Below are positions 37,699 through 49,662 of a stretch of 64,000 nt of DNA, piece after piece. Position numbers and translations under genes: made by a program. Every line of letters begins with the position of its first letter. The first letter of the stretch is position 1. Location: the NCBI RefSeq assembly GCF_003855495.1, contig NZ_CP034086.1, positions 2,641,501-2,705,500 of the forward strand, read 5' to 3'. Below the pieces are notes generated by a model. The model was not told the origin of the DNA. It saw only the letters and a list, made by a program, of their open reading frames with translations, and searched no databases. This DNA comes from Methylocystis rosea (GTDB lineage Bacteria; Pseudomonadota; Alphaproteobacteria; Rhizobiales; Beijerinckiaceae).

Positions 37699-40329
37699 CT
37701 ACTCCCAGTTCCAGGCGACCGGCTGGAGCCAGCCGCCAAATTGCGGCCAGCCTTCGTTGCCGGTGTAGAAAATGCCCGGCAAATTCTTGCCCGTGCCATA
37801 TTCGTACTTCGCTGAGAAGATGAAGGTCCGCTGTGGATAGGGGTGGAACAGCGCGAATTTGTAATTGTTCACATTGTCGATGCCGGCGTCGAACGACCAG
37901 CGGTCGCTGTATTTGTAATGCGCGTGCAGATCGACCATGAAGAAGCGATCCGACGAGCCGAAGATGCCATGCACGAGATCGTTGTTGGCGAGCGTGCGCC
38001 AGATGCGATCCTGCCAGCGCATCGCCACCGTGAACGCCCAACTGTCATCCGGGCGATAGGTGACTCCGAAATTCCAGCGCCATTTCGGCACGCCCGGCGC
38101 ATTCTTGCCGGCGACCGATGTCGCCCATGGAAACTCGAAGCTCGTTCCGAACGGCGATGTCGCAGATGGCGCCGAAGGCTGCCATCTGCTGAACGAGATG
38201 ACCCGTGAATTGACGAATGTCACGCTGCCGAACAGTTGGAGTCCCTTGTAGTAGACATTGTCCTTCTGCCACGCGAACTCCGCGCCGGTATTGCGAAGGC
38301 GGTCGACGTTGATATTGGCGTTGGCCTGAAAGGCCGAGCCGGGAACGATCGTGGCGTTGCTGATAATCGCGTCGCGCGCTTCTTCGTCGAAGAGCGACAG
38401 CCGCGCCCAGCTGTCGGGACCAAGGCTGCGTTGAAAGACGATCTCCTTGGTCAGAGCGGTCTCTGGACGCAGATTGGGGTTGGGATTGGAGACGAATCCC
38501 GTCGCGCCCGGCGTCGCGGTGAGATTGTAGAGTTCGCGCACGGTCGGAAAGCGATTGGCCATGCCGATATTGCCGGTGATTGTCCAATAGGGATCCGCCT
38601 CCCAGCGCAGCGACGCCTTCGGCGAAACGCGCGTGGAATACAGATTGGGCTGGAAGATCGGCAACATGGTCCCAAGCGTCGCCGAAGCGCCGGTGGCGGC
38701 GGCGTTCAATCCTCCGAGCAGCTGATTGTATCCGTCGGAGGCTTGCCAATGCTCGCCGCGAACGCCGAGCGTCAGTTTCAGGTCGGGACGCAGGAGAATC
38801 GCATCCTGCGCCCAGAGCGCCTGCGTGCGCGTCGTGCCGCTGCCGACCGATTGCACGACGCCAAGCGACGACTGCATGCCCGCTGTCCAATTCGTCGTGA
38901 CCCAGATCGGATTGTTCGAGTGGTATTGGTCGCCGTGTATGCCGAAGCTGATGTCGTGCATGCCCTCGGGGCCGTCCGGCCGATAAATGCCCTTCAGGTC
39001 GAGAAGCGTCCAGTAGGTGCCGGTGAAGATTGTGTCCCGCCCCGTCTGCGTATAGCCGCCGAAGGGGTTGATGCCGGTCGACGGCACCCCGCTCCAGGCC
39101 GAGCGCGAAGAGCTGTAGGGGTAGGTGAAATGCGAGGCGGAAAGCTCGAAGTCGAAAACGCCCTGCGTATTCGACTTGAGCGCCAAGGAGTTGACCAGGA
39201 TGGTCTCCTGATAGCGCAGATTGGCCGCGCCGAAGCCTTGCAACGTGGTCAGAGGCAGCGCAGCAGGCCCCGAGGGCGGGCCAAAGACTTCGTTGCGTCC
39301 CCCCGACAGATAGTTCAGCGGCCAGGACACGCGATCGCTGTTGAACACGCCGAGCGTATAGACGCCGCGGATCGTCGGCGTGAAGTCATAAGCGACCTTC
39401 ACCTTGCCGTTGATGAAATTCTCCTCCGATATCGATCCCGAGCCGACGATCGACTGCGGCACGCCATAGACATTTTGCGAGAAGATCGCGCCCGGATAAG
39501 GATAGAAGCGGTTAGCGTTGATGAACGAAATCGGCTGGTTGTTGTTCCAGGCGTAATTGAGCGCGACGAAATAGGACAGATCGCCGATTTTATCGCCGAT
39601 GGTCAGCGCCGTCGTCGTCGTCGGCAGGCCGAGCTGAGCGCCCCACCACGCAAAATCCTGCACCGCAACGGTCTGCTTGGCGGTGACTTCGAGATGCTCC
39701 GGCATGCGCGTGGTGAATTTGATGACGCCGCCGATCGAATTGCCCGGATACTGCGCCGCATAGGGCCCATAGAGATAGTCGACGCGCTCGATCTCTTCCG
39801 GCGAGATAAGCCCCCAGCGCGGCTGGCCGTCAGTGTGGCCGTTGGAGATGAGCTGGCTGATCAAGAGATCGTCGACATAGACCAGAGCGCGCGCCGACGA
39901 GAGGCCCCAGGTGCGCGTCTGAATCATGCCTTCATTGCCGCCGCGCAATTTGCGCACGAACAAGCTCGGCACATATTTGAGCGCATCCTGGCTATCGACG
40001 ATGTTGATCTTCTCTTTGATGTCGCGGCGCGTGACGCTCGCGACCGTGTTGGGCAATTGCCAGCGCTGAACGAAAGCCGGCTTGCCGTCAGGAAGCGTCG
40101 CCGACCAGATTGAGACAGGCGCGGGGCCCGGAGCCGGAGCCGGCGCGACATTTGTCGCGGCGCCTGGAACCCCAGTCGTCGGCCGCCTGACGACGCCGCG
40201 GCGTTGACCGCCGACGTCGATCGTAGGCAGCGACTGCTGCGCAGCGGCGCGCGTCGCGTAAAGTTCGGAAAGCGCAAAGATGGCGAGAGCGCCGGCGGAG
40301 ACGCCGCGCAGAAGCGAGTGGCGAGACAT
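37699..40329 (-). CDS. TonB-dependent outer-membrane receptor
   Basis: 876 aa from ATG 40329 (GGAAG upstream). Signal peptide 1-30 (LYATRAAA); TonB-box-like LPTIDVGG follows. Plug at about 95-230: DIKEKINIVDSQDALKYVPSLFVRKL, RGGNEGMIQTRTWG, ARALVYVDDLLISQL, IERVDYLYGPYAAQYPGNSIGGVIKF. A long barrel with aromatic girdles follows. The plug is of the siderophore/metal-receptor class. It shares the N-terminal signature with the receptor at 190-2547. A small Cys/His protein lies 77 nt upstream on the same strand, and the divergent operon encodes ExbB, ExbD and TonB, so this receptor very probably has its own energiser. Ligand unknown; a copper or other metal complex is possible. Confidence 0.92.
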   Translation of the reverse strand: MSRHSLLRGVSAGALAIFALSELYATRAAAQQSLPTIDVGGQRRGVVRRPTTGVPGAATNVAPAPAPGPAPVSIWSATLPDGKPAFVQRWQLPNTVASVTRRDIKEKINIVDSQDALKYVPSLFVRKLRGGNEGMIQTRTWGLSSARALVYVDDLLISQLISNGHTDGQPRWGLISPEEIERVDYLYGPYAAQYPGNSIGGVIKFTTRMPEHLEVTAKQTVAVQDFAWWGAQLGLPTTTTALTIGDKIGDLSYFVALNYAWNNNQPISFINANRFYPYPGAIFSQNVYGVPQSIVGSGSISEENFINGKVKVAYDFTPTIRGVYTLGVFNSDRVSWPLNYLSGGRNEVFGPPSGPAALPLTTLQGFGAANLRYQETILVNSLALKSNTQGVFDFELSASHFTYPYSSSRSAWSGVPSTGINPFGGYTQTGRDTIFTGTYWTLLDLKGIYRPDGPEGMHDISFGIHGDQYHSNNPIWVTTNWTAGMQSSLGVVQSVGSGTTRTQALWAQDAILLRPDLKLTLGVRGEHWQASDGYNQLLGGLNAAATGASATLGTMLPIFQPNLYSTRVSPKASLRWEADPYWTITGNIGMANRFPTVRELYNLTATPGATGFVSNPNPNLRPETALTKEIVFQRSLGPDSWARLSLFDEEARDAIISNATIVPGSAFQANANINVDRLRNTGAEFAWQKDNVYYKGLQLFGSVTFVNSRVISFSRWQPSAPSATSPFGTSFEFPWATSVAGKNAPGVPKWRWNFGVTYRPDDSWAFTVAMRWQDRIWRTLANNDLVHGIFGSSDRFFMVDLHAHYKYSDRWSFDAGIDNVNNYKFALFHPYPQRTFIFSAKYEYGTGKNLPGIFYTGNEGWPQFGGWLQPVAWNWE

Positions 40330-40405
40330 GAAATGCTTCCTTCTAGCGCCGGTCAAGGCGGCGCGACTGACCTGAACGGCTTTCGCCGTCGTAACGTTCG
40401 GCAGA

Positions 40406-40780
40406 TCAGACGAAGGAAGGGGGCCCGCGCGTCGGGGCGCTGCGGTTCGGCCGCGAAGGGACAAAGGCCAGCGTCGGCGGCGCCCGCGGCGCGAGATTGT
40501 GTTCGACGCCACGGATCGCAAAAACGGCGTCCGCCGGCGGCGGTGCGCTCCAGCCGATCTGGCAGAGCGCGCAGGCGCATCCATCGTGATCAAGCTGATC
40601 CGAAGGCGCTTGATCCGACTCGCCCTGCGCCACAGGCGATGTATTCGCCAGCAAATGGCACTTGGCGATCGGCGCGTTCGGCGCGTCAACGGATCTCGAC
40701 GCCATCGCCTCGCAAGGCGATACGAGCCTCGCGACGAGCGCAAGGAGAGCGAGGAGAGCGAGGAGTTGGCGAATGCGCAT
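40406..40780 (-). CDS. Small exported Cys/His protein (DUF2946-like)
   Basis: 124 aa from ATG 40780 (frame open to 40804). N-terminal signal or anchor (MRIRQLLALLALLALVARLV). The mature part has a Cys/His cluster: CHLLANTSP, then DHDGCACALCQIGW. This pattern (H...CxxC before a hydrophobic stretch) resembles DUF2946 proteins, which often accompany copper-related TonB receptors; the match is by eye. The C-terminus is Pro/Arg-rich. It precedes the TonB receptor by 77 nt, forming one operon, and is divergent from a similar small protein at 40922. Confidence 0.6.
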   Translation of the reverse strand: MRIRQLLALLALLALVARLVSPCEAMASRSVDAPNAPIAKCHLLANTSPVAQGESDQAPSDQLDHDGCACALCQIGWSAPPPADAVFAIRGVEHNLAPRAPPTLAFVPSRPNRSAPTRGPPSFV

Positions 40781-40868
40781 AGGCTCTTGCGAAGTCGACG
40801 TCATTAACTTTAGCGACGCCGTAATCGCACATGAACCGGTAAACCGAGACTTTCCAAGCCTGCGCGCG

Positions 40869-40897
40869 TTGTCAAAGGTTAAAAAATCAACTAAGAG
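40869..40897 (+). promoter_or_regulatory. Possible promoter of the exb/tonB operon
   Basis: TTGTCA (40869-40874) and TAAGAG (40892-40897) are separated by 17 nt, within the only AT-rich part of the 123-nt gap between two divergent Cys/His genes. The start of transcription would fall near 40903, which favours ATG 40922 over ATG 40904 as the downstream start. Confidence 0.35.
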
Positions 40898-40921
40898 ACA
40901 TTTATGTCACAGTTGCGCGCC

Positions 40922-41332
40922 ATGCGTCGGGAATTCCGCGCGGCATTTGCCGTCGCGGCCGCTTGCGCGCTGATGTTCTCGCTTCTTTTATCGGGCGCGA
41001 CGCGGCCGGCGCACGCATTCGCGGACCAAGGCGGAATCGCCTGCGATCATGCCGCTTATGTTGCAGGTCTGCACGCAACCGCCGCGCAGAAGGGGGCGGC
41101 GACGCAGCGCGACGGCTCGCCAACGCATTCTGCGCATAGATGTCCGGACTGCTGCCTGACCGCCCATGCAGGCCACGCCGTTCTTCCAGAGCGCGTCGCT
41201 TCGGCGATGCGGACCGCCGCGGAGCGCCCTTCTGAAATTCGGCATTGCGCCGTCGCCACGCCGCCGCCCGAGAGTTTCGCAGCGAACGGCGCGAATGGCG
41301 CGCGCGCCCCACCCTCAATTCATATTTCCTGA
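40922..41332 (+). CDS. Small exported Cys/His protein (DUF2946-like), first gene of the exb/tonB operon
   Basis: 136 aa from ATG 40922 (ATG 40904 gives six more residues). Signal or anchor segment MRREFRAAFAVAAACALMFSLLLSG. The mature part is rich in His and Cys: CDHAAYVAGLHATAA, then HSAHRCPDCCLTAHAGHAV, a CxxCC-x4-H-x2-H cluster suited to binding a soft metal such as copper. This resembles DUF2946-type proteins and pairs with the divergent protein at 40406. It is followed by exbB after 148 nt that include an inverted repeat. Confidence 0.6.
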   Translation: MRREFRAAFAVAAACALMFSLLLSGATRPAHAFADQGGIACDHAAYVAGLHATAAQKGAATQRDGSPTHSAHRCPDCCLTAHAGHAVLPERVASAMRTAAERPSEIRHCAVATPPPESFAANGANGARAPPSIHIS

Positions 41333-41338
41333 ATTTAC

Positions 41339-41371
41339 GTTAGACTCCAGTGCGCCGCGCAGGAGTCTAAC
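41339..41371. promoter_or_regulatory. Perfect 10-bp inverted repeat before exbB
   Basis: GTTAGACTCC (41339-41348) and GGAGTCTAAC (41362-41371) with a 13-nt spacer. It starts 6 nt after the stop of the Cys/His gene. No strong T-run follows, so either a weak terminator/attenuator that lowers exbB expression relative to the first gene, or an operator for a metal regulator; the sequence alone does not decide. Confidence 0.5.
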
Positions 41372-41480
41372 TGCGGGCTTTCTCCGCTTTGCGGCCTCTC
41401 GTCTCGCGAAGACATAACAAAACAAAAACTGACGCTTCGCCCGCGCGATCGCCGCAGGCGCGTCCTAATGAAACGAGTGA

Positions 41481-42131
41481 GTGAAAATGGATTACAATAC
41501 GCTTTCTCCTCTCGCCATGTTCCTCAACGCCGGTCCTGTCGGAAAGGCCGTCATGGCGCTGCTGCTGCTCGCGTCGATCTGGACGTGGGTGCTCATCGTC
41601 GAAGGCGTGGTGGCCGTCACCCGCATCGCCAAGTCGGCCCGCTCCGCCCGTGCGGGGGGAGACGTCGGCGTTCTCGCGCCCGTCGCCGAAGCAGGCCGCG
41701 AAGGTTTTGCCCTCGACCTTCCCGACGAAACGATCGGCGACAAGCGCGCCCGCATCGCCGACCATATGAGCCGCGCGGCGCGCGAGTTCCTGACCAAGGC
41801 GGAGGGCGGCCTGCCTAATCTCGCCGTCATCTCGTCGGTCGCGCCCTTCGTCGGCCTGTTCGGCACGGTGTGGGGAATCATGACGAGCTTCGCCGGCATC
41901 GCCCAGTCGCAGGACACGAGCCTCGCGGTCGTCGCGCCCGGCATCGCCGAAGCGCTTGCGGCGACGGCGTATGGACTTGCCGCCGCCATCCCCGCGTCAG
42001 TCGGATACAACCGCATCGGCGCCGCCTTCGCGCGCGTTGGCCAGCAGGTCGCGCATTACATCGAAGACGAGTCTCTCCTGATGTGCAGCGGCCATCAGTC
42101 GCGTCCGCGTCGCGATCGGGAGGCTGCATAA
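41481..42131 (+). CDS. exbB: ExbB/TolQ-family proton channel protein
   Basis: 216 aa with three TM helices (about 18-42, 107-135, 150-175). MotA/TolQ/ExbB signature: LPNLAVISSVAPFVGLFGTVWGIMTSFAGIA and APGIAEALAATAYGLAAAIPASVGYN. With ExbD it forms the proton-driven motor that powers TonB. The last 20 residues (MCSGHQSRPRRDREAA) are basic with Cys/His. The stop and the exbD start overlap (TAATG). Expected partner of the TonB protein at 42658. Confidence 0.93.
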   Translation: MKMDYNTLSPLAMFLNAGPVGKAVMALLLLASIWTWVLIVEGVVAVTRIAKSARSARAGGDVGVLAPVAEAGREGFALDLPDETIGDKRARIADHMSRAAREFLTKAEGGLPNLAVISSVAPFVGLFGTVWGIMTSFAGIAQSQDTSLAVVAPGIAEALAATAYGLAAAIPASVGYNRIGAAFARVGQQVAHYIEDESLLMCSGHQSRPRRDREAA

Positions 42132-42661
42132 TGGGCATGCCCTCACGCCAGCGCCAGAGCGCAACCGAAGGCCTTTATCAGCCGCTCGCCGATATCAATG
42201 TGACGCCGCTCGTCGACGTCATGCTCGTGTTGCTGATCATTTTCATGATCACGGCGCCATTGCTCGCCAAGGGCGTCAAGGTGAACTTGCCGCAGGCGAG
42301 CGCCGCGATGCCGATCAACCAAAAAGACCCGATCGTCGTGACAGTGGGCAAGGACGGCAAGATCGCGCTTGGCGCGGACGAGCTCTCAGCCGAGGCGCTC
42401 GTCGACGGCATCAAGGTGATGATGGGCGACGACCAGTCGCGCGTCGTTCATATCCGCGGCGACACGGAGGCGGTTTATGGCGAGGTCGTCGCGGTGATGG
42501 ATAAGCTTGCGACCAACGGCATCACCCATATCGCGATCATGACCAACTCGCGCAGCAAGACCGGCGCAGGCATGAAAGCCGCGCCCGGACGCGCTGCGCC
42601 CGCAGCGGTCGGCGCTCCGCCGGCGCAGGCGCCCGCCGCGGCCACAGGGGCGGCAAAATGA
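42131..42661 (+). CDS. exbD: ExbD/TolR-family protein
   Basis: 176 aa, one TM helix (about 27-47). Signature ADINVTPLVDVMLVLLIIFMITAPL with the channel Asp (VDVMLVLL), then the periplasmic domain ending THIAIMTNSR. An Ala/Pro-rich C-terminal tail of about 30 residues (AAPGRAAPAAVGAPPAQ) is longer than in most ExbD. Start ATG 42131 is fused to the exbB stop, and its own stop overlaps the tonB start (ATGA at 42658). Confidence 0.93.
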   Translation: MGMPSRQRQSATEGLYQPLADINVTPLVDVMLVLLIIFMITAPLLAKGVKVNLPQASAAMPINQKDPIVVTVGKDGKIALGADELSAEALVDGIKVMMGDDQSRVVHIRGDTEAVYGEVVAVMDKLATNGITHIAIMTNSRSKTGAGMKAAPGRAAPAAVGAPPAQAPAAATGAAK

Positions 42662-43374
42662 CGGATCTCGCGCTAAGTCCCCACGACATGGCGCGGGAGG
42701 GCGATCATCCGCCTTCTGGTCCGGAGCCGGTTAAGCCGGGTTGGCTGCGCTCGGTGACGACCGTCCTCGTCGTCGCGGCGCATGTCATGGTCTTCGGCAT
42801 ACTCGCCTATTCGGCGAAGCCGACGGCGGTATCGCTCGACTCTGTCAGCATGGACCTCGTGCCGGAAGGCGACTTCTTCGAGCAGGAGGAAGTCGCCGAG
42901 GCCGACGACACGCCGCCGCCCGAAGCGGTCGAGGAGCCCGACATCGCGCTTCCGCCGCCAATGGTGATGTCGCCCGACGCCGTGCCTCTGCCGGCCAAGA
43001 AGGAAGACGTCGACGAGGTCAAGAAGAAGGTCGAGCAGCAACAGGTCCAGCGCGCGCAGCAACGTCAGGAGGCGCAGGCGCGTCGGCGCTACGGCGCGCC
43101 TGAGGGACACGCCGCGAGTTCGGGCGCGTCGCAGGCGACATGTCTTGCCCATATCGCCGCAGCGCTTCGCCGGCATACGCCAGGCAACACCAGCCTTGGT
43201 CCCGGCCATGCGAGCGTGACGTTCCACGTCAATCCGGGCGGCGGTCTGTCTGGCATTTCGGCTTCAGGATCGACTCCGGCGCATGCGGCGCTCGCGCGGC
43301 GGATCGTGTCTTCCGCGCGCGGCCCAGGCATGTGCAGCTCGGCCTTCGTGAGCCAGGCTTTCGCCTTCCATTGA
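42658..43374 (+). CDS. tonB: TonB-like energy transducer
   Basis: 238 aa. Cytoplasmic N-terminus of about 28 residues, one TM helix (about 31-51: SVTTVLVVAAHVMVFGILAYS), an acidic/Pro-rich spanning part (EEVAEADDTPPPEAVEEPDIALPPPMV), a Lys/Gln coiled section (EVKKKVEQQQVQRAQQRQEAQARRRYG), then a C-terminal TonB-like domain (ASVTFHVNPGGGLSGISASGSTPAHAALARRIVSSARGP). Unusually, this domain has two Cys (ATCLAHI and GMCSSAF) that could form a disulfide. Starts within the exbD stop. It is the only member of the four TonB-C proteins here with full TonB layout. Confidence 0.85.
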   Translation: MTDLALSPHDMAREGDHPPSGPEPVKPGWLRSVTTVLVVAAHVMVFGILAYSAKPTAVSLDSVSMDLVPEGDFFEQEEVAEADDTPPPEAVEEPDIALPPPMVMSPDAVPLPAKKEDVDEVKKKVEQQQVQRAQQRQEAQARRRYGAPEGHAASSGASQATCLAHIAAALRRHTPGNTSLGPGHASVTFHVNPGGGLSGISASGSTPAHAALARRIVSSARGPGMCSSAFVSQAFAFH

Positions 43375-43435
43375 CGCGAACGGCGGCGGACGCTCGCGCC
43401 CGCCGCCTAAGATCGTTCCGAATATTGAGGGCCTG

Positions 43436-43897
43436 ATGAAGCTCGCGCGACTGCTTACCCTCGCCGCGGCGCTCGCCGCGTGCGCGGCGCACGCCGAGGA
43501 CGCGAAGCCCGCGACCACGCCGGCGCCTAAGCCCGCTTCCACAGCGCCCGCGCCACCGCGAACTGCAGCGCCAAACGCCGCTGCGCCGGCGACGACGGGC
43601 GGCGCAGCCGCGCCTTCCGCCGCTCCGGCGATGTCGGAGAGCAAGTTCCTCGGCGCGCTCTACACGGCGATCGCCAAGCGAACGCCCACGGAAAGTCCTG
43701 CCGGCGACGGCGAGGTGACGGCCAGCTTTCACGTCAACGCGCAAGGCAAGATCGACAAAGTGACGATCGACAAGACGACAAGTCCAGCGCTTTCAGAAAC
43801 GGTGAAGAAGATCCTGTCGAGCGTCGAAGCGCCGCCGCCGCCGGGCGGATCGATGGATGTGGGACAAACCTTCAAGTTCCGCGCAACGCCGAAATGA
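43436..43897 (+). CDS. Periplasmic TonB-C-domain protein 1
   Basis: 153 aa. N-terminal signal peptide (MKLARLLTLAAALAACAAHA), possibly a lipoprotein because of LAAC at about 13-16. An Ala/Pro/Thr linker (about 25-62) leads into a TonB-C-like domain: VTASFHVNAQGKIDKVTIDKTTSPALSETVKKILSSVEAPPPPGGSMDVGQTFKF. It lacks the TM anchor that would contact ExbB/ExbD, so it cannot transmit energy in the ordinary way. It follows tonB by 61 nt on the same strand, and the same domain ending (PPPPGGS...QTFKF) is shared with the two next genes. Confidence 0.7.
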   Translation: MKLARLLTLAAALAACAAHAEDAKPATTPAPKPASTAPAPPRTAAPNAAAPATTGGAAAPSAAPAMSESKFLGALYTAIAKRTPTESPAGDGEVTASFHVNAQGKIDKVTIDKTTSPALSETVKKILSSVEAPPPPGGSMDVGQTFKFRATPK

Positions 43898-43985
43898 GTC
43901 GGTCGCGCCGTTCAAAACTTTCGGTCCGTGGCTGAATTGAATCCATGCGCAAGAGGCCCGCGCATGTTTATCGAAGGAGAAGGAA

Positions 43986-44507
43986 ATGCGGCACATTTCT
44001 CGACTGACACTGAGTCTTTCGGCATTGGCGTTCGCCTGTGCGCTTGGCGCGAGCGGACCGGCGCGCGCCATCGATGAGGCGCAAAAGCCCAAGGCCGAAG
44101 ACAGCGCCGAACCGAAGCGCGAAGAGAGCAAGGATACGAAATCCGAGGAGAAGACCGAAAAGCGCGAGGAGAAGACCGACGCCGGGCGCGAACAGAAACC
44201 CAAGGCCGCGCGGGACGAGAAGACTGAGAAGGCAGCCGATAAAAAGAAACACGCCGACAACAGCGCCTATCTGCGCAAGCTCGGTCTAATTATCCGGGCG
44301 CGCTCGCCGGGCGCGACGAGTCTTGGCGAAGGAAGCGCCGTCGTTCGCTTTCATCTTGGCGCCTCAGGCGCGACTGACAGCGTCACACTCGTTTCCGCTT
44401 CGACGCCCCGCCACGGGCAATTGGCGCGCTCCATCGTCTCCGGCCTGCGGGCGCCGCCGCCGCCCGGCGGCTCATATGACGGCGTGCAGAGTTTCAGATT
44501 TCACTAG
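43986..44507 (+). CDS. Periplasmic TonB-C-domain protein 2 with charged linker
   Basis: 173 aa. Signal peptide (MRHISRLTLSLSALAFACAL...ARA, about 1-29). A highly charged Lys/Glu linker (about 30-90: SEEKTEKREEKTDAGREQKPK) follows, then a TonB-C-like domain (SAVVRFHLGASGATDSVTLVSASTPRHGQLARSIVSGLRAPPPPGGSYDGVQSFRFH). The linker would span the periplasm as the Pro-rich region of TonB does. There is no retained TM segment. Third of four tandem TonB-C genes; GGAGAAGGA before the ATG 43986 is a strong ribosome site. Confidence 0.7.
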   Translation: MRHISRLTLSLSALAFACALGASGPARAIDEAQKPKAEDSAEPKREESKDTKSEEKTEKREEKTDAGREQKPKAARDEKTEKAADKKKHADNSAYLRKLGLIIRARSPGATSLGEGSAVVRFHLGASGATDSVTLVSASTPRHGQLARSIVSGLRAPPPPGGSYDGVQSFRFH

Positions 44508-44553
44508 CGGTGCGGCGTCTCTTCGCGGCTGAGGCGATCAAGATGGGAGAGAG

Positions 44554-44952
44554 ATGATGCGCAAGGCAAGAAGAATGCGTCGGCCTCTTTCCTGGCCATG
44601 GATTCTCGCCTTGCTCGTCGTCGGAATTGAAGTCGCGTCAATCGGCGCAGCGTCGGCGCGCAACAATATGCTCCGCGCCGCCTATGCGACGCGCGTTTCG
44701 GAAATGTTGCGCGATCGCGCCTATTTAGAGATCTCGTCGCGTTTTTTCCGGATGGAGTCGCCACGCATGGGCCCGGGCTATGCGCGCGTCTGGTTCAAGA
44801 TTGATTCGTCTGGACATGTGACGAACGTTAGAGTGGTCGACGCAACCAGCGATGCGCACGCGCGGAAGGCGGAAGCGATCTTGTCCGGCTTGCGCCTGCC
44901 GCCGCCGCCTGAGGGCGGCTTTGCGGCCGCACAATCATTCAACTTTAGATGA
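44554..44952 (+). CDS. TonB-C-domain protein 3 with N-terminal anchor
   Basis: 132 aa. A basic N-terminus and hydrophobic segment (RPLSWPWILALLVVGIEVASIGAASA, about 10-36) may be an anchor or a signal peptide. The rest is a TonB-C-like domain (YARVWFKIDSSGHVTNVRVVDATSDAHARKAEAILSGLRLPPPPEGGFAAAQSFNF). There is no Pro-rich spacer, so it could not reach the outer membrane alone. It lies 47 nt after protein 2 and 35 nt before the BNR-repeat gene. Confidence 0.68.
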   Translation: MMRKARRMRRPLSWPWILALLVVGIEVASIGAASARNNMLRAAYATRVSEMLRDRAYLEISSRFFRMESPRMGPGYARVWFKIDSSGHVTNVRVVDATSDAHARKAEAILSGLRLPPPPEGGFAAAQSFNFR

Positions 44953-44986
44953 CGGCGCCGCTACACAGATGAGATCGGGAGGACCA

Positions 44987-46276
44987 ATGAAGCGTCTAGC
45001 TCTTGCCCTACTGGCGTTCGCGGCCTCTAGCGCCGTAAGCGCGGAACAAGGCGCGCCCTCCGCAGACGCTCCTAAGGACGCGTCGACGCCGACTCAATCA
45101 GCGCCGCCGGCCGCGATGAGTCACCATCCCGCCGCCGCCTGCGCCGAGGCGAAGGTCGACTGCGCGGCGACCGCCGTTCCCGCCTTTGCGAAGGACGGAC
45201 GACTGTGGGTCGCCTTCTCCGTTGGCAAGAGCCTTTACGCAGCCGCCTCTTCGGATAATGGCGCGACGTTCTCCGCGCCGACCGCGATCGCTACGATCGG
45301 CGACGGCGTGATCGACGCGCATGGTGACGCGCGTCCGAAAATCGTCGCGCTCAAAGACGGAACGCTGCTCGCGAGCTATACGACACGGCCCGACAAGCAG
45401 ATGATCGGCACGATCTTCACCGCTCGCTCGACCGACGGCGGCAAGACCTTTTCAGCGCCGCAGGCGCTTTTAGCCGAAGGCGGCCAGCGCTTCGACAGCA
45501 TCCTCGTCAACCGCAAGGGCCGCATCTACGCCGGCTGGCTCGACAAGACTCATGCGCTCAAAGCCAAGGCCGAAGGCAGGGAGTTTCTCGGCAGCGGCGT
45601 CGCCTTCGCCTATTCGGACGACGGCGGCAAGACGTTCAAAGGCAAGTCGATCCTCATCGATCACGCCTGCGAATGCTGCCGCATGTCAGGCGCGCTCGAC
45701 AAGGACGGAACGCCGGTCTTCGCGTGGCGACAGGTTCTGGACGGCAATGTTCGCGACCATATGGTCGCCAAGCTTTCCGCGGACGCCGCGCAAGCGACGG
45801 CGACGCGCGTTTCCGACGACGATTGGGCGATCAATAGCTGCCCGCATCACGGACCATCGATCGCGATCGACGCCGCCGGCGATTGGCATGTGGTCTGGTT
45901 CACCAAGGGCAAGAAGCGCCAAGGGCTCTATTACGCGCGCAGCCTCGACGCCGGCAAAAGCTTCTCGGAGCCGGAGAAATTCGGCGACGACGCGCGCGCC
46001 GCCGGACATCCGACGCTGGTCGCGGCCAAGGGCCGCCTGTATCGCGTCTGGAAGGAATTCGACGGCGCGACGACGACGATCGCCATGCAAATGTCGCGCG
46101 ACAACGGCAAGAGCTGGAGCGCCCCGCGCGTCGTGGCGCAAACCTTGGACGCCTCCGACCATCCCGAGCTCATCGCCCATAATGGCGCGGCGTATTTGTC
46201 GTGGTTGACCCATAAGGAAGGCTATCGCCTGATGCCGCTGCCGCGAGACGAAAAAAGCGCAGCGGCGCCGCAGTGA
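44987..46276 (+). CDS. Exported BNR/Asp-box repeat (sialidase-fold) protein with Cys cluster
   Basis: 429 aa from ATG 44987 (GGGAGGACC upstream). Signal peptide 1-18 (AVSA). At least five Asp-box repeats of the S-x-D-x-G-x-[TS]-[FW] type: SSDNGATFSAP, STDGGKTFSAP, SDDGGKTFKGK, SLDAGKSFSEP, SRDNGKSWSAP, giving a six-bladed propeller. The catalytic Arg triad of real sialidases was not found, so glycosidase action is doubtful. Cys-rich spots (CAEAKVDC near 50, HACECCRMSG at about 226-234, NSCPHHG near 280) suggest a metal or redox site. Last gene before a repeat and the thioredoxin gene; likely a periplasmic partner of the uptake system. Confidence 0.75.
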   Translation: MKRLALALLAFAASSAVSAEQGAPSADAPKDASTPTQSAPPAAMSHHPAAACAEAKVDCAATAVPAFAKDGRLWVAFSVGKSLYAAASSDNGATFSAPTAIATIGDGVIDAHGDARPKIVALKDGTLLASYTTRPDKQMIGTIFTARSTDGGKTFSAPQALLAEGGQRFDSILVNRKGRIYAGWLDKTHALKAKAEGREFLGSGVAFAYSDDGGKTFKGKSILIDHACECCRMSGALDKDGTPVFAWRQVLDGNVRDHMVAKLSADAAQATATRVSDDDWAINSCPHHGPSIAIDAAGDWHVVWFTKGKKRQGLYYARSLDAGKSFSEPEKFGDDARAAGHPTLVAAKGRLYRVWKEFDGATTTIAMQMSRDNGKSWSAPRVVAQTLDASDHPELIAHNGAAYLSWLTHKEGYRLMPLPRDEKSAAAPQ

Positions 46277-46301
46277 CGCCAATTCGGATGGGCGCTGCTT
46301 T

Positions 46302-46410
46302 GTCATTGGCGACGCGCGCGCCGCGCGTGATCGGCAATCCAGAAGCGATCAACGGCGCCGGCTTTATCACTCTCGATTCCCGGTCGGGCCTGCGGCCTAC
46401 AGGGAATGAC
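46302..46410. repeat. 109-nt hairpin-rich dispersed repeat, copy 2 (degenerate)
   Basis: Same length and order as the copies at 3384 and 60843: GTCATTGGCG ... GGCAATCCAGAAG ... CGATTCCCGGTCG-GGCCTGCGGCC ... CAGGGAATGAC. The left arm has several changes from the consensus GTCATTCCCGGC, so its hairpins are weaker. It lies between the BNR gene and the thioredoxin gene. Confidence 0.7.
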
Positions 46411-46443
46411 AAGAACTATAGAAGTTTAGTGGGTCTTCGTCGC

Positions 46444-46923
46444 ATGCGCCTCATGTCTTTCGCCGTCGTCATTGCGCTTCTTGCAGGTGGAGGCGCCTTC
46501 GCCATGGACTTCAAGCCCTACGGCCGCGGCGCATTCGGGCAATTGACCAAGGCTCACGCCGGCAGGCCGCTCATCGTGCATTTCTGGTCGGTGACCTGTC
46601 CGCCCTGCCTCGTGGAATTGCCGCAATGGGCGAAGATCGCCGCCGAGAAAAAGGGATCCGACATCGTCTTCGTCAACACCGACAGCGACGATGACCGCGC
46701 CCGCGCTGAGGCGCGCATCGAGAAGGCCGGGCTCTCGGGCGCGGATCATTACGGATTCGCCGACGACTTTGTCGAAAAGCTCTATTTCGAAGCGGACAGC
46801 GCCTGGCGCGGAGAATTGCCGTTCACGGCGCTTGTCGCGCCTGACGGCGGCGTCGTGACGGTGACGGGCGCGGTCGACGATCCGCTGATCGTCGACTGGT
46901 TGAAGAAGCACGTAGCCAAGTGA
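46444..46923 (+). CDS. Exported thioredoxin-like protein (TlpA/ResA type)
   Basis: 159 aa from ATG 46444. Signal peptide 1-20 (MRLMSFAVVIALLAGGGAFA). Thioredoxin fold with active site WSVTCPPC (Cys52-Pro-Pro-Cys55) followed by LVELPQW, and the cis-Pro in ELPFTALVAPDG. TlpA-type proteins reduce periplasmic disulfides, including those of copper chaperones and oxidase subunits, which suits the Cys-rich neighbours (CECC protein, Cys/His proteins, TonB with two Cys). The longer open frame to 46273 runs through the repeat and is not used. Confidence 0.85.
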   Translation: MRLMSFAVVIALLAGGGAFAMDFKPYGRGAFGQLTKAHAGRPLIVHFWSVTCPPCLVELPQWAKIAAEKKGSDIVFVNTDSDDDRARAEARIEKAGLSGADHYGFADDFVEKLYFEADSAWRGELPFTALVAPDGGVVTVTGAVDDPLIVDWLKKHVAK

Positions 46924-46932
46924 AGCGGCCGC

Positions 46933-47133
46933 TTACCAGCGGCCTCGCGCGTAAAGCACGCCGAGCACGATGAGAAGCGCCAGCAATTGCAGACCGACGC
47001 GCCAGCGCATGAGCTTCTGCGAGCGGGCCGGCGCGCCCTCGCCGCCGCGAAACATATTGATGAAGCCGGCGACGACGACAAGAATCACCGCCGCGACGGC
47101 GACAATGACCAACAGATTTGAAGAACTTGGCAT
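46933..47133 (-). CDS. HIG1-domain twin-TM membrane protein
   Basis: 66 aa with two TM helices (about 8-28, LVIVAVAAVILVVVAGFIN, and 46-63, VGLQLLALLIVLGVLYA). The loop and RWRVGLQLLAL match the small alphaproteobacterial HIG1 family (hypoxia-induced-protein region), whose mitochondrial relatives attach to respiratory supercomplexes. Start ATG 47133. It lies 60 nt downstream of the TIGR02302 gene on the same strand and is convergent with the thioredoxin gene. Confidence 0.75.
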   Translation of the reverse strand: MPSSSNLLVIVAVAAVILVVVAGFINMFRGGEGAPARSQKLMRWRVGLQLLALLIVLGVLYARGRW

Positions 47134-47193
47134 GAGCGGCGCTTCTCCCTACCCGGTGCGCTGTAGAGAAGCGCGCGCCCGCGGGCAAGGCGT

Positions 47194-49662
47194 TTATCGC
47201 CGCAGCAGGCGCTGCAGATAATCGAGCTCTTCCTGCGGGCGTTCAGGCTGGCCAAGCCTGCGGCGCAGCTCTTCCTGCACGCGATGGGCGCGCTGCGCCG
47301 GCGGCAGGCCGAGCGGATCATATTTCCCATAGGCGTCGGGGCGATTGCCGTCGCCAGACGCCCGCCCGAGCGGATCGCGTCCCTTGCCGCGGCGGCCGCG
47401 CCTGCCCGGGCTTCCGCCCTCTTCTTCAGCGCTTTGGTCGCCCTCGCCGCGCATCTGCTGCGCCAGCCTGTCGGCGCCCTTACGCAACGCCTGCACCGCG
47501 CGCCCTTGCGCGTCGACCGCCCTGGCGCCGCCTTCGCCAGCCTTTCCGAGCGCGTCTTCCGCCTCCTTCATCGCGCGTCGCGCGTCATCGAGTTCTTCGG
47601 CGGCTTCGACGCCGCCCTCGCGCAGCGCGTCCTGCTGGCGCTCAAGCCGCTCGCGAAGCGCCTGCTGGCGCTGGCGCTCGGCGCTGAGCTCCTCGTGCTG
47701 CGGCTGTCCCTTCTGCCGATGGCCGCGCGCGCCGCGCGCCTCCATATCGCTCGGCGCGTTCATCCCCTGGAACGTGTCGTCGCGCAATTGCTGTTCTTCG
47801 CGCGACAACTGGTCAAGCTCGTTGAGCGCGCGCGCCATTTCGCGCCCGCGCCCGCGACTCTGGCCCGCCCCCTGCGCCGTCTGCGCATTTTCGAGAATGT
47901 CCTGGAGTTCCTCCAGGAGCCGTTGCGCCTGCGCCATGTCGCCCGATTTCATGGCTCGGTCCATCTCGTCGAGCATCGCCTGCAAATCGTCCGGCGTGAC
48001 GGTGTCGGCGCCGCCCTCCGACTCCTGGCGCGGCGCACCTTCCGGCGGCAATCGGCTGCCAAGCTGCTGGAGGAATTTATCAAGCGCGGCGCGTAGCTCC
48101 TCGGCGCGGCTGGCGATGTCCTGCTCGCTGTCGCCGCGCGCGATCGCATCCTTCAATTCGCGCTCCGCCGCGCGCAGTTCGCGCTCCGCTTGGGAGGTGT
48201 CGCCCTCTTCCAGGCCGAGCGCCATCGCCCACAGCATGTCACAGACGCCGCGCAACTCGTCGTCGCTACGCGGACCCTCAAGACCGCGGCGCGCCTCGCG
48301 GAGTCCGAGATGGACGGCGGCGGGCGTATCGAAGGCTTCGGGCGCGATCGACAGCGCCTCGAGCGCCGCGCGAACGCTTGAGCGCGAATCCGGATCGAGC
48401 GCGAGGATGCGCCTCTGTTCGGCGAGCGCGCGCGCGAGCGGCTTGACGAAGCGACGCTGCGGCAGGGTCACGTCGATCGATTCAGAAGCGCCTTCATTGT
48501 CCGCGGCGTCCTTGGCGACGAGGCGCATCGCGAGCTTCGCGCCGCCGAAAGGACTGTCGGCGAGATCGATTGTCGCCTTGGCCTCGCCCTGACCGCCGCC
48601 GCCGGGCGGCAAAGCGAGCGCAAGACGGGGCGGCTCATAGAGCGCGCGTCGCGCGCTGGGCGGGCCGCTAAAGACCGCTTCGGCGCCGACGACGCCGTAA
48701 TCGTCCGTGGCGCGGAACGCAAGCGTCATCGAGCCCCGAACATTGTTGCGCGGCTTTTCCGTCAGCGCGATGGTCGGCGGCTTGTCTGGGATCGCCGCGA
48801 GATCGAAACGCCGACCGTCGGAGAGCGACACGCGCGCCGCGCGAGAGAGTTTGAACGCCTGCTCTTTCGACGCGCCCTTTTGCGACTCTTCGACGGCGGT
48901 CTGCGCGGCGACCAGTCCGCCGGAGACGGATACGCCAGAGTCTGGGGGGCGGATGCGCAGCATCGAATTGACCGGCGCCTCGATGGGCGCGTCGCTCTCC
49001 TTTGCCAGCACGATCGGCGGACGCCCCGTATAGGCGGGCGGTTCGAGCCAGGCGTCGACGCGCGCGGCGGTCCCGAAGCTCGCGGACGTGCGCCAGTCAA
49101 ATGCGGCGGCGATTCGCGCGCGCTTTTCATCGCCTGCCATGAATCCGGCCGCAACCGCCGCGACGAGCGCCAGCGCGCGCAGCGCATAGGGGTCGCGCTG
49201 GGGCACGCGCGGATGCGGCGCCTCGATGGGGGTTTGCGCCAGCGCCGCCTCCAAGCGCTGGCGATGCAGCGCCCAGAGCGCCTCGACCGCCGCGTCGGGG
49301 TTCGGACTGGCGAGCCGATCCTCGAGTGAAGAAGCAGGGCGCAGCGCGGCGTCGGCGCCGCGGTCCAGCCGTTCGAGCGCGGCTGCGCGATGCGGCAAGC
49401 CGCGCGCAGACTCCCGCGCGACGACATAGAGCGCGGCGAACCCAAAGAGCGCCACGCCGCCGACGCGCGCCTCAAGCGGCGCAGCCTGCCAAAGGCCAAG
49501 CCAGGACAGCGCCAGAAAAAACAGGAGAATCGTGGCGAGCGCCAAGCCGGCCCGCCAGACGCGCTCGGCGATGAGCGCAAGCGCCGACCGGCGCAGCATC
49601 CCCTCAAGACGCGGCGAGGTCGTGTTCCCCGTGGGCGTATTCTGGTGCTGAGGCTCGTCCAT
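47194..49662 (-). CDS. TIGR02302/DUF4175-family membrane protein
   Basis: 822 aa. Two TM helices near 32-48 and 65-82 (ALATILLFFLALSWLGLW; ARVGGVALFGFAALYVVA). An Ig-like periplasmic part (ARVDAWLEPPAYTGRPPIVLA, MTLAFRATDDYGVVGAEAVF) is followed by a long Gln/Glu/Arg-rich coiled region (about 545-770, including QQALRERLERQQDALREG) and the terminal ELDYLQRLLRR. This is the alphaproteobacterial TIGR02302 family; no function is established. Start ATG 49662. Divergent from the protein at 49786. Confidence 0.88.
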   Translation of the reverse strand: MDEPQHQNTPTGNTTSPRLEGMLRRSALALIAERVWRAGLALATILLFFLALSWLGLWQAAPLEARVGGVALFGFAALYVVARESARGLPHRAAALERLDRGADAALRPASSLEDRLASPNPDAAVEALWALHRQRLEAALAQTPIEAPHPRVPQRDPYALRALALVAAVAAGFMAGDEKRARIAAAFDWRTSASFGTAARVDAWLEPPAYTGRPPIVLAKESDAPIEAPVNSMLRIRPPDSGVSVSGGLVAAQTAVEESQKGASKEQAFKLSRAARVSLSDGRRFDLAAIPDKPPTIALTEKPRNNVRGSMTLAFRATDDYGVVGAEAVFSGPPSARRALYEPPRLALALPPGGGGQGEAKATIDLADSPFGGAKLAMRLVAKDAADNEGASESIDVTLPQRRFVKPLARALAEQRRILALDPDSRSSVRAALEALSIAPEAFDTPAAVHLGLREARRGLEGPRSDDELRGVCDMLWAMALGLEEGDTSQAERELRAAERELKDAIARGDSEQDIASRAEELRAALDKFLQQLGSRLPPEGAPRQESEGGADTVTPDDLQAMLDEMDRAMKSGDMAQAQRLLEELQDILENAQTAQGAGQSRGRGREMARALNELDQLSREEQQLRDDTFQGMNAPSDMEARGARGHRQKGQPQHEELSAERQRQQALRERLERQQDALREGGVEAAEELDDARRAMKEAEDALGKAGEGGARAVDAQGRAVQALRKGADRLAQQMRGEGDQSAEEEGGSPGRRGRRGKGRDPLGRASGDGNRPDAYGKYDPLGLPPAQRAHRVQEELRRRLGQPERPQEELDYLQRLLRR

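Follow-up and report, generated by a model that had tools for sequence, protein, structure and literature searches.

TonB is usually described as a membrane-anchored rod, one per motor, and a locus in the 4.2 Mb genome of Methylocystis rosea raises the question of what additional, apparently secreted TonB domains could do beside such a motor. The window analysed here is a stretch of 64,000 nucleotides (NZ_CP034086.1, positions 2,641,501 to 2,705,500). It contains two divergent gene runs facing away from each other: the minus-strand run consists of a short leader open reading frame (ORF) and a TonB-dependent receptor, and the plus-strand run of a second leader ORF, exbB, exbD, tonB, three genes for further TonB C-terminal domains (CTDs), here called satellites s1, s2 and s3, a BNR propeller and a thioredoxin (Table 1). 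A slight balance of probability favours reading the whole as a copper-starvation TonB system in which the secreted TonB domains are cofactors at the interface between the TonB box and TonB.

Satellite TonB domains and their motor

The proposal of an earlier note on this DNA that the three satellites are homologous to the TonB CTD is borne out. In Pfam, s1 exceeds the TonB_2 cut-off (22.8 against 22 bits), s3 stays below that of TonB_C (21.3 against 24.6 bits), and the match of s2 is likewise below cut-off; NCBIfam TonB_Cterm gives weak, sub-cut-off matches for all three. The structure prediction suggested in the note as a check was made for s1: the AlphaFold2 (AF2) model of its CTD, with a block predicted local distance difference test (pLDDT) score of 88-96, has a TonB/TolA-type fold, the best fold matches being solved TonB and TolA CTDs, with the FusB CTD also among the matches. 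The homology of the s1 CTD to TonB is well supported. The PPPP motif, given in the note for the alignment with the TonB CTD, occurs in the three satellites and is missing from the tonB of the window. For this tonB gene itself, a Pfam scan at E<=1 found no TonB domain, NCBIfam gave only a weak match to a non-CTD part of a TonB model, and homology to the satellites is deduced from a tblastn match between s2 and tonB (38% identity, 8e-9). The home-made CTD profile used in the genome surveys was seeded with these same domains, including that of tonB, and is not independent evidence of homology.

A single N-terminal helix with a conserved membrane His is present in all 31 full-length TonB orthologues, and the D-box pattern, known from E. 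coli TonB (PMC12215075), in 30 of 31. Counted by gene position, which replaces a circular count where the D-box or the membrane His had defined tonB, the pattern occurs in 30 of 31 first CTD genes after exbD and in none of 61 later ones. Signal peptides were called in 71 of 77 satellite segments; the other six were read as two contig-end cuts, two tonB genes, one frame-disrupted s2 and one segment just under the hydrophobicity limit, and the survey filed one s1 (locus L019) as tonB. The earlier note had given two satellites a signal peptide and s3 a bare anchor; the former assignment stands, but the N-terminus of s3 also scores as a signal peptide and its orthologues in L003, L008 and L012 carry ordinary ones, making the anchor doubtful. 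Since they lack the ExbD-binding D-box and carry export signals, the satellites should be un-energised periplasmic proteins; for s1, such a predicted state follows from the sequence and the model. A lipoprotein nature of s1, suggested by LAAC in the window, was rejected, as the Cys is lost in several orthologues and cleavage-site-like motifs are kept.

The genomes of group g1 are taken as Methylocystis, those of g42 as a Methylosinus-like sister genus and those of g78 as Bradyrhizobium-like. The exbBD-tonB-s1 set was found in all ten listed g1 genomes and in seven of eight listed g42 genomes, G105 having exbBD-tonB alone; the 17 of 18 is counted over the genomes of both genera that appear in the match listings, where match-free genomes are incompletely represented. 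The conservation in relatives on which the earlier note made its proposal depend is thus present. Matches to the CTD profile occur in 43 of 199 family genomes at E<=0.001, and those below 1e-20 are confined to the two genera. An order-wide sample of 347 genomes yielded nine with a match at E<=1e-8, of which two belong to g1; the remaining seven (one of the same family, six of other families; best 8e-13) have longer ORFs of 348-662 residues. The run tonB-satellite(s)-propeller is conserved, as far as the contigs reach, in 20 of the 21 loci that a first genome scan gave, the exception being that of Methylobacter. The number of satellites varies by lineage from 0 to 4 among 31 loci with exbD (L010, L014 and L017 are left out of the satellite, D-box, receptor and receptor-side leader counts as duplicates of L067, L071 and L073), and the four TonB-type genes of the note are not supported as a fixed part list. 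In a CTD tree built on 79 columns for 85 rows, a ratio that drew a warning from the tool, the s1 rows of the two genera fall into a single supported clade (100/96), and s2 and s3 are represented by Methylocystis rows alone. By sequence comparison s1 is the core satellite, and s2 and s3 are patchy.

Pairwise ratios of non-synonymous to synonymous substitution rates (dN/dS; NG86, 7 to 11 chosen loci) have medians of 0.06 for exbB, 0.13 for exbD, 0.16 for tonB and the propeller, 0.18 for s1, 0.19 for the thioredoxin, 0.23 for s2, 0.34-0.43 for the leader ORFs and 0.52 for s3, which by this measure is loosely held. Within s1 the value is 0.081 for the CTD part (the last 95 alignment codons) against 0.39 for the N-terminal part, and it is 0.152 for the CTD part of TonB. 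The constrained CTD and loose N-terminal part mark s1 as a functional gene in which the domain counts for more than the linker, and the kept gene run, together with purifying selection on tonB, s1, s2 and the propeller, shows that the cluster is not a product of chance.

ExbB and ExbD of the window (41487-42661) score higher with the NCBIfam TolQ and TolR models (155 and 119.8 bits) than with the ExbB and ExbD models (140 and 92 bits), each under its cut-off. The TonB CTD of Methylocystis has two conserved Cys, and most sister-genus TonBs have a PPPPGG loop there and fewer Cys; in parallel, the thioredoxin gene is absent from the sister-genus loci, a coincidence that is weak because it concerns one lineage only. 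The genome of the window also holds a second TonB of the same type beside an exbB, as well as two orphan secreted CTD genes. Beyond the cluster, genes with a TonB CTD were seen in L091 (6231-7067, minus strand), L092 (6939-7307, minus strand) and L093 (6768-7136, minus strand), with tandem copies in L094, L095 and L102.

The plus-strand genes from exbB to the thioredoxin gene are all present, on one strand and in the order given in the earlier note; the interval it assigned to them begins with a minus-strand DUF2946 ORF and holds a second one before exbB. Intergenic gaps from exbB to the propeller gene are -4 to 88 bases, and the thioredoxin gene starts 167 bases past the propeller end. A spacer of 99 bases separates the leader ORFs, which end 76 and 154 bases ahead of their respective first genes. 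In 40300-47300, a search for sigma-70 promoters found none, and terminator-like sites showed no excess over shuffled sequence.

Table 1. Features of the two gene runs, in window coordinates
Feature	Position	Strand	Evidence
TonB-dependent outer-membrane receptor, 876 aa	37699..40329	-	ORF; Plug and barrel domains in relatives
Receptor TonB box LPTIDV, residues 34-39	40213..40230	-	
DUF2946/CruR-like leader ORF ahead of receptor	40406..40804	-	CALC, 44 residues, RGPP, 3 residues; Pfam 20.1 bits
DUF2946/CruR-like leader ORF ahead of exbB	40904..41332	+	CPDC, 50 residues, RAPP, 5 residues; Pfam 17.7 bits
exbB	41487..42131	+	Pfam MotA_ExbB 102.9 bits, above cut-off
exbD	42131..42661	+	Pfam ExbD 103.8 bits, above cut-off
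tonB: membrane helix, D-box-like strand, linker, CTD with two Cys	42658..43374	+	tblastn to s2
TonB membrane-helix His, residue 42	42781..42783	+	Conserved in orthologues
TonB D-box-like stretch SLDSVSMDLVP after membrane helix	42832..42864	+	
s1: signal peptide, Ala/Pro linker, TonB CTD from ~43634	43436..43897	+	Pfam TonB_2; AF2 model
s2: signal peptide, Lys/Glu linker, TonB CTD from ~44268	43986..44507	+	
s3: signal peptide or anchor, no linker, TonB CTD from ~44683	44554..44952	+	TonB_C 21.3 bits
Exported BNR propeller with HACECC and CPHHG	44987..46276	+	Pfam BNR_2; model and fold matches
Propeller HACECC motif (H226, C228, C230, C231)	45662..45679	+	Invariant in 27 aligned rows
Propeller CPHHG motif (C285, P286, H287, G289)	45839..45853	+	Invariant in 27 aligned rows
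Exported thioredoxin-like protein, CPPC C52-C55 at 46597-46608	46444..46923	+	Redoxin and Thioredoxin above Pfam cut-offs

Leader ORFs, operon partners and copper

CruR, a leader of the DUF2946 type, is reported to be a copper-sensing switch; in Bordetella it turns off the operon of a copper receptor in the presence of copper (PMC9426467). The leader ORFs of the window resemble it, with DUF2946 scores (Table 1) under the cut-off of 23.7 bits; the CruR-like ORFs of L080 and L104 are above it. On the exbB side, CXXC and RxPP motifs are present in all 29 orthologues found by BLAST, which found none in L100. On the receptor side, 25 of the 27 loci that have a receptor as well as exbB show both motifs, L075 and L076 having RASP instead. 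The spacing from CXXC to RxPP is 43-46 residues on the receptor side and 48-50 on the exbB side, the latter being longer than the reported ~45.

The propeller protein has BNR repeats and a propeller fold of the sialidase/BNR type according to Pfam, its model and the fold matches of the latter, and residues C52, C59, H226, C228, C230, C231, C285 and H287 are invariant in 27 rows. In L080 this propeller is found again, behind a CruR-type ORF and a TonB-dependent receptor; it lies beside such a receptor and a thioredoxin in L081 and L082, and in L104 (5436-12705), from a genus of the same order, it belongs to an operon CruR-receptor-propeller-thioredoxin-PCuAC-DUF1775-CopC/CopD. The copper case rests on these CruR-type leader ORFs and operon partners: regulation by copper is well supported at the sequence level, and a function of the cluster in copper starvation is very probable. 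The earlier note had proposed copper, or a metal complex, for a methanotroph; copper remains the likely substrate, on a basis corrected to the leaders and partners that the note had missed. In Methylobacter psychrophilus (L020, 4514-17061), two divergent receptors are accompanied by the propeller as a probable lipoprotein and by an ABC-2 type transporter, and a conventional TonB-ExbB-ExbD set is read from the ORFs of the same stretch.

The s1 cluster is also associated with pmoA (PF02461), found in 20 of 199 family genomes: it occurs in 15 of these 20 and in 2 of the 179 pmoA-negative genomes (Fisher p 1.5e-16, a value that ignores shared ancestry). The two genomes with the cluster and without a pmoA match are G057 and G164; pmoA occurs without the cluster in G105, G126, G172, G185 and G198.

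A lanthanide, iron or some other substrate appears quite unlikely. It is true that the receptor matches no copper receptor model well (19.4 bits with TIGR01778, the OprC-type TonB-copper model, cut-off 472.45), that its best model matches are heme-type and likewise below cut-off, and that comparison with solved structures found no close relative. However, two CruR-type leaders head the gene runs, the propeller and thioredoxin recur in the PCuAC-CopCD operon, and the genome encodes another ExbBD-TonB elsewhere, adjoining a different receptor, for other substrates.

A methanobactin locus (L084, G000:C1:2722554-2735000) lies about 34 kb downstream of the cluster. Its MbnP, MbnH, MbnB, MbnC, MbnM and MbnF proteins are above the model cut-offs, and one of its ORFs ends in the M. 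rosea-type MbnA sequence as quoted in PMC3621798. A CruR-like ORF heads MbnP, MbnH and a TonB-dependent receptor on one strand, with MbnB, MbnC, MbnM and MbnF on the opposite strand. Identification of the receptor of the window as MbnT was rejected on context, because no mbn genes adjoin it and the mbn locus has another receptor. Elsewhere in the same genome (L090, G000:C1:1568552-1572579), a weak DUF2946 match (E 0.08), a TonB-dependent receptor gene and a PepSY_TM gene (189 bits) follow one another in that order, which is the CrtA-type arrangement of Bordetella.

Receptor exchange and the possible role of the satellites

As the earlier note had supposed in coupling the motor to the receptor, the latter usually adjoins the cluster (27 of 30 loci holding exbB; absent in L021, L074 and L100). 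In near relatives, the receptor alleles at this place are either 59-60% or 93-96% identical to that of the window. The receptors of L003, L006, L008, L067 and L068 are 59-60% identical, whereas exbB (96-99%), the propeller (84-97%), the s1 CTD (94-97%) and the TonB CTD (89-98%) are kept; receptors of 93-94% identity are found in three loci with propellers of 85-86% and in L022, where the propeller is cut by the contig end. In L003, L006 and L068 the DNA similarity is lost only within the receptor gene, with no match at ~39067-39652. Across both alleles the TonB box reads LPTID[VI] in 26 of 27 cases and LPTINV in one. Divergent receptors with conserved flanks and TonB box suggest that the receptor gene has been exchanged, that the ligand varies and that the TonB-box interface remains constant. 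The relatedness of the s1 CTD tracks the motor rather than the receptor allele, and s1 would thus act on this constant side.

The following scheme may be proposed for Methylocystis and its sister genus, most members of which have particulate methane monooxygenase (pMMO). At low copper, ribosome arrest on both CruR-type leader peptides would allow transcription of both operons, and sensing of copper by the leader CXXC would shut them off, by analogy with the mechanism described for CruR. The receptor would bind a copper complex differing between strains, as its divergent alleles at a constant TonB box suggest, and the dedicated ExbB-ExbD-TonB motor would pull the LPTIDV box. Between power strokes the satellites, chiefly s1, may attach by beta-strand addition to the TonB box, or to the TonB domain itself, being un-energised cofactors of the cycle of pull and release. 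Periplasmic copper would be taken by the Cys/His-rich propeller, possibly kept reduced by the thioredoxin, for copper enzymes such as pMMO.

From these observations we infer a cofactor role at the TonB box or the TonB domain, and prefer it to several other functions of the satellites. They could be brakes: the secreted CTDs would titrate out the TonB boxes, or TonB itself, and so reduce uptake at high copper or with an empty receptor. The satellites should indeed not be energised and yet keep the CTD, and a soluble CTD that binds the box would be expected to compete by mass action. Braking nevertheless seems unlikely, because the satellite genes share a gene run and a leader with the machine to be blocked, and because constraint on the s1 CTD is no weaker than on that of TonB. 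That they are tandem duplicates in decay with no role is the least probable view; it fits the patchy s2 and s3, the dN/dS of s3, an s2 copy split over two frames in L004 and a remnant in L075, but not the presence of s1 in 17 of 18 listed genomes, its strongly constrained CTD or the dN/dS of s2.

Two further functions are improbable to the same degree. In one, the satellite CTD would bind the incoming copper complex or copper protein and draw it into the periplasm. Binding of an imported substrate by a TonB CTD has a precedent in FusB (PMC13253070), whose CTD is among the fold matches of s1; a substrate binder should, however, track the receptor allele and not the motor, and the s1 CTDs in the rows of the satellite survey have no Cys. 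In the other, the satellites would act on the propeller as TolA domain III acts on the TolB propeller. The fold of s1 and the gene order are compatible with this, but 3 of 17 clusters keep satellites without a propeller, the propeller occurs without satellites in L080, L081 and L082, and none is seen in the ORF list of L104.

The preferred cofactor role can be extended, tentatively and with less than an even chance for the combination, to a split Ton machine: one energised TonB with secreted CTDs to which the TonB box passes once pulled and which hold or re-seat the receptor plug, force and gate-keeping being on separate proteins. It would have arisen in Methylocystis and the sister genus for high-flux copper uptake, with strains swapping receptors onto one motor to use each other's copper carriers. 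A conserved operon with secreted TonB domains under strong selection raises the question of a role for TonB domains free of force, and is relevant to the debate on what TonB dimerisation and release from the TonB box contribute. With such a system, Methylocystis would have a route for copper in addition to methanobactin, and its receptor locus would lend itself to studying ligand exchange between strains.

Comparison with known systems

A literature search (titles and abstract openings, with subscription journals mostly outside it) found neither secreted TonB-CTD genes in an exbBD-tonB operon nor this cluster. A periplasmic TonB domain made in E. coli reportedly inhibited transport, although the literature search did not turn this up. 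Among the closest known systems is the copper uptake operon CruR-bfrG(crtA)-bp2921 of Bordetella pertussis, in which a DUF2946 leader with CXXC and RAPP heads a TonB-dependent receptor, and ExbBD-TonB genes are reported beside some crtA genes (PMC9426467, PMC12914433). Unlike that operon, the window combines a pair of divergent leaders with a motor that has secreted TonB domains, and with a propeller and a thioredoxin; no PepSY_TM gene is present among the cluster genes scanned. Ligand-site residues conserved in the CrtA receptor family are, in CrtA-Bp numbering, Y130, W265, E337, Q356, H358 and R395. The L104 operon resembles pcuABCDE, the copper-starvation operon of Bradyrhizobium japonicum (PMC8424229, PMC6696091, PMC9426467), but no ExbBD, TonB or satellites were seen in the L104 stretch. 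MbnT is likewise a copper-complex receptor of Methylocystis and Methylosinus (PMC9601215, PMC3621798); the mbn locus of this genome, however, has its own receptor next to MbnP/MbnH.

The Tol system is approached by the slightly TolQ/TolR-like ExbB and ExbD, by a CTD fold like that of TolA domain III and by the propeller gene downstream. It differs from the window, which has a TonB-dependent receptor with a TonB box and in which the propeller is dispensable. HasB and FusB, the dedicated TonB paralogues, share with the satellites an extra TonB CTD devoted to one uptake system, but they are inner-membrane proteins, whereas the satellites read as exported and lack the D-box.

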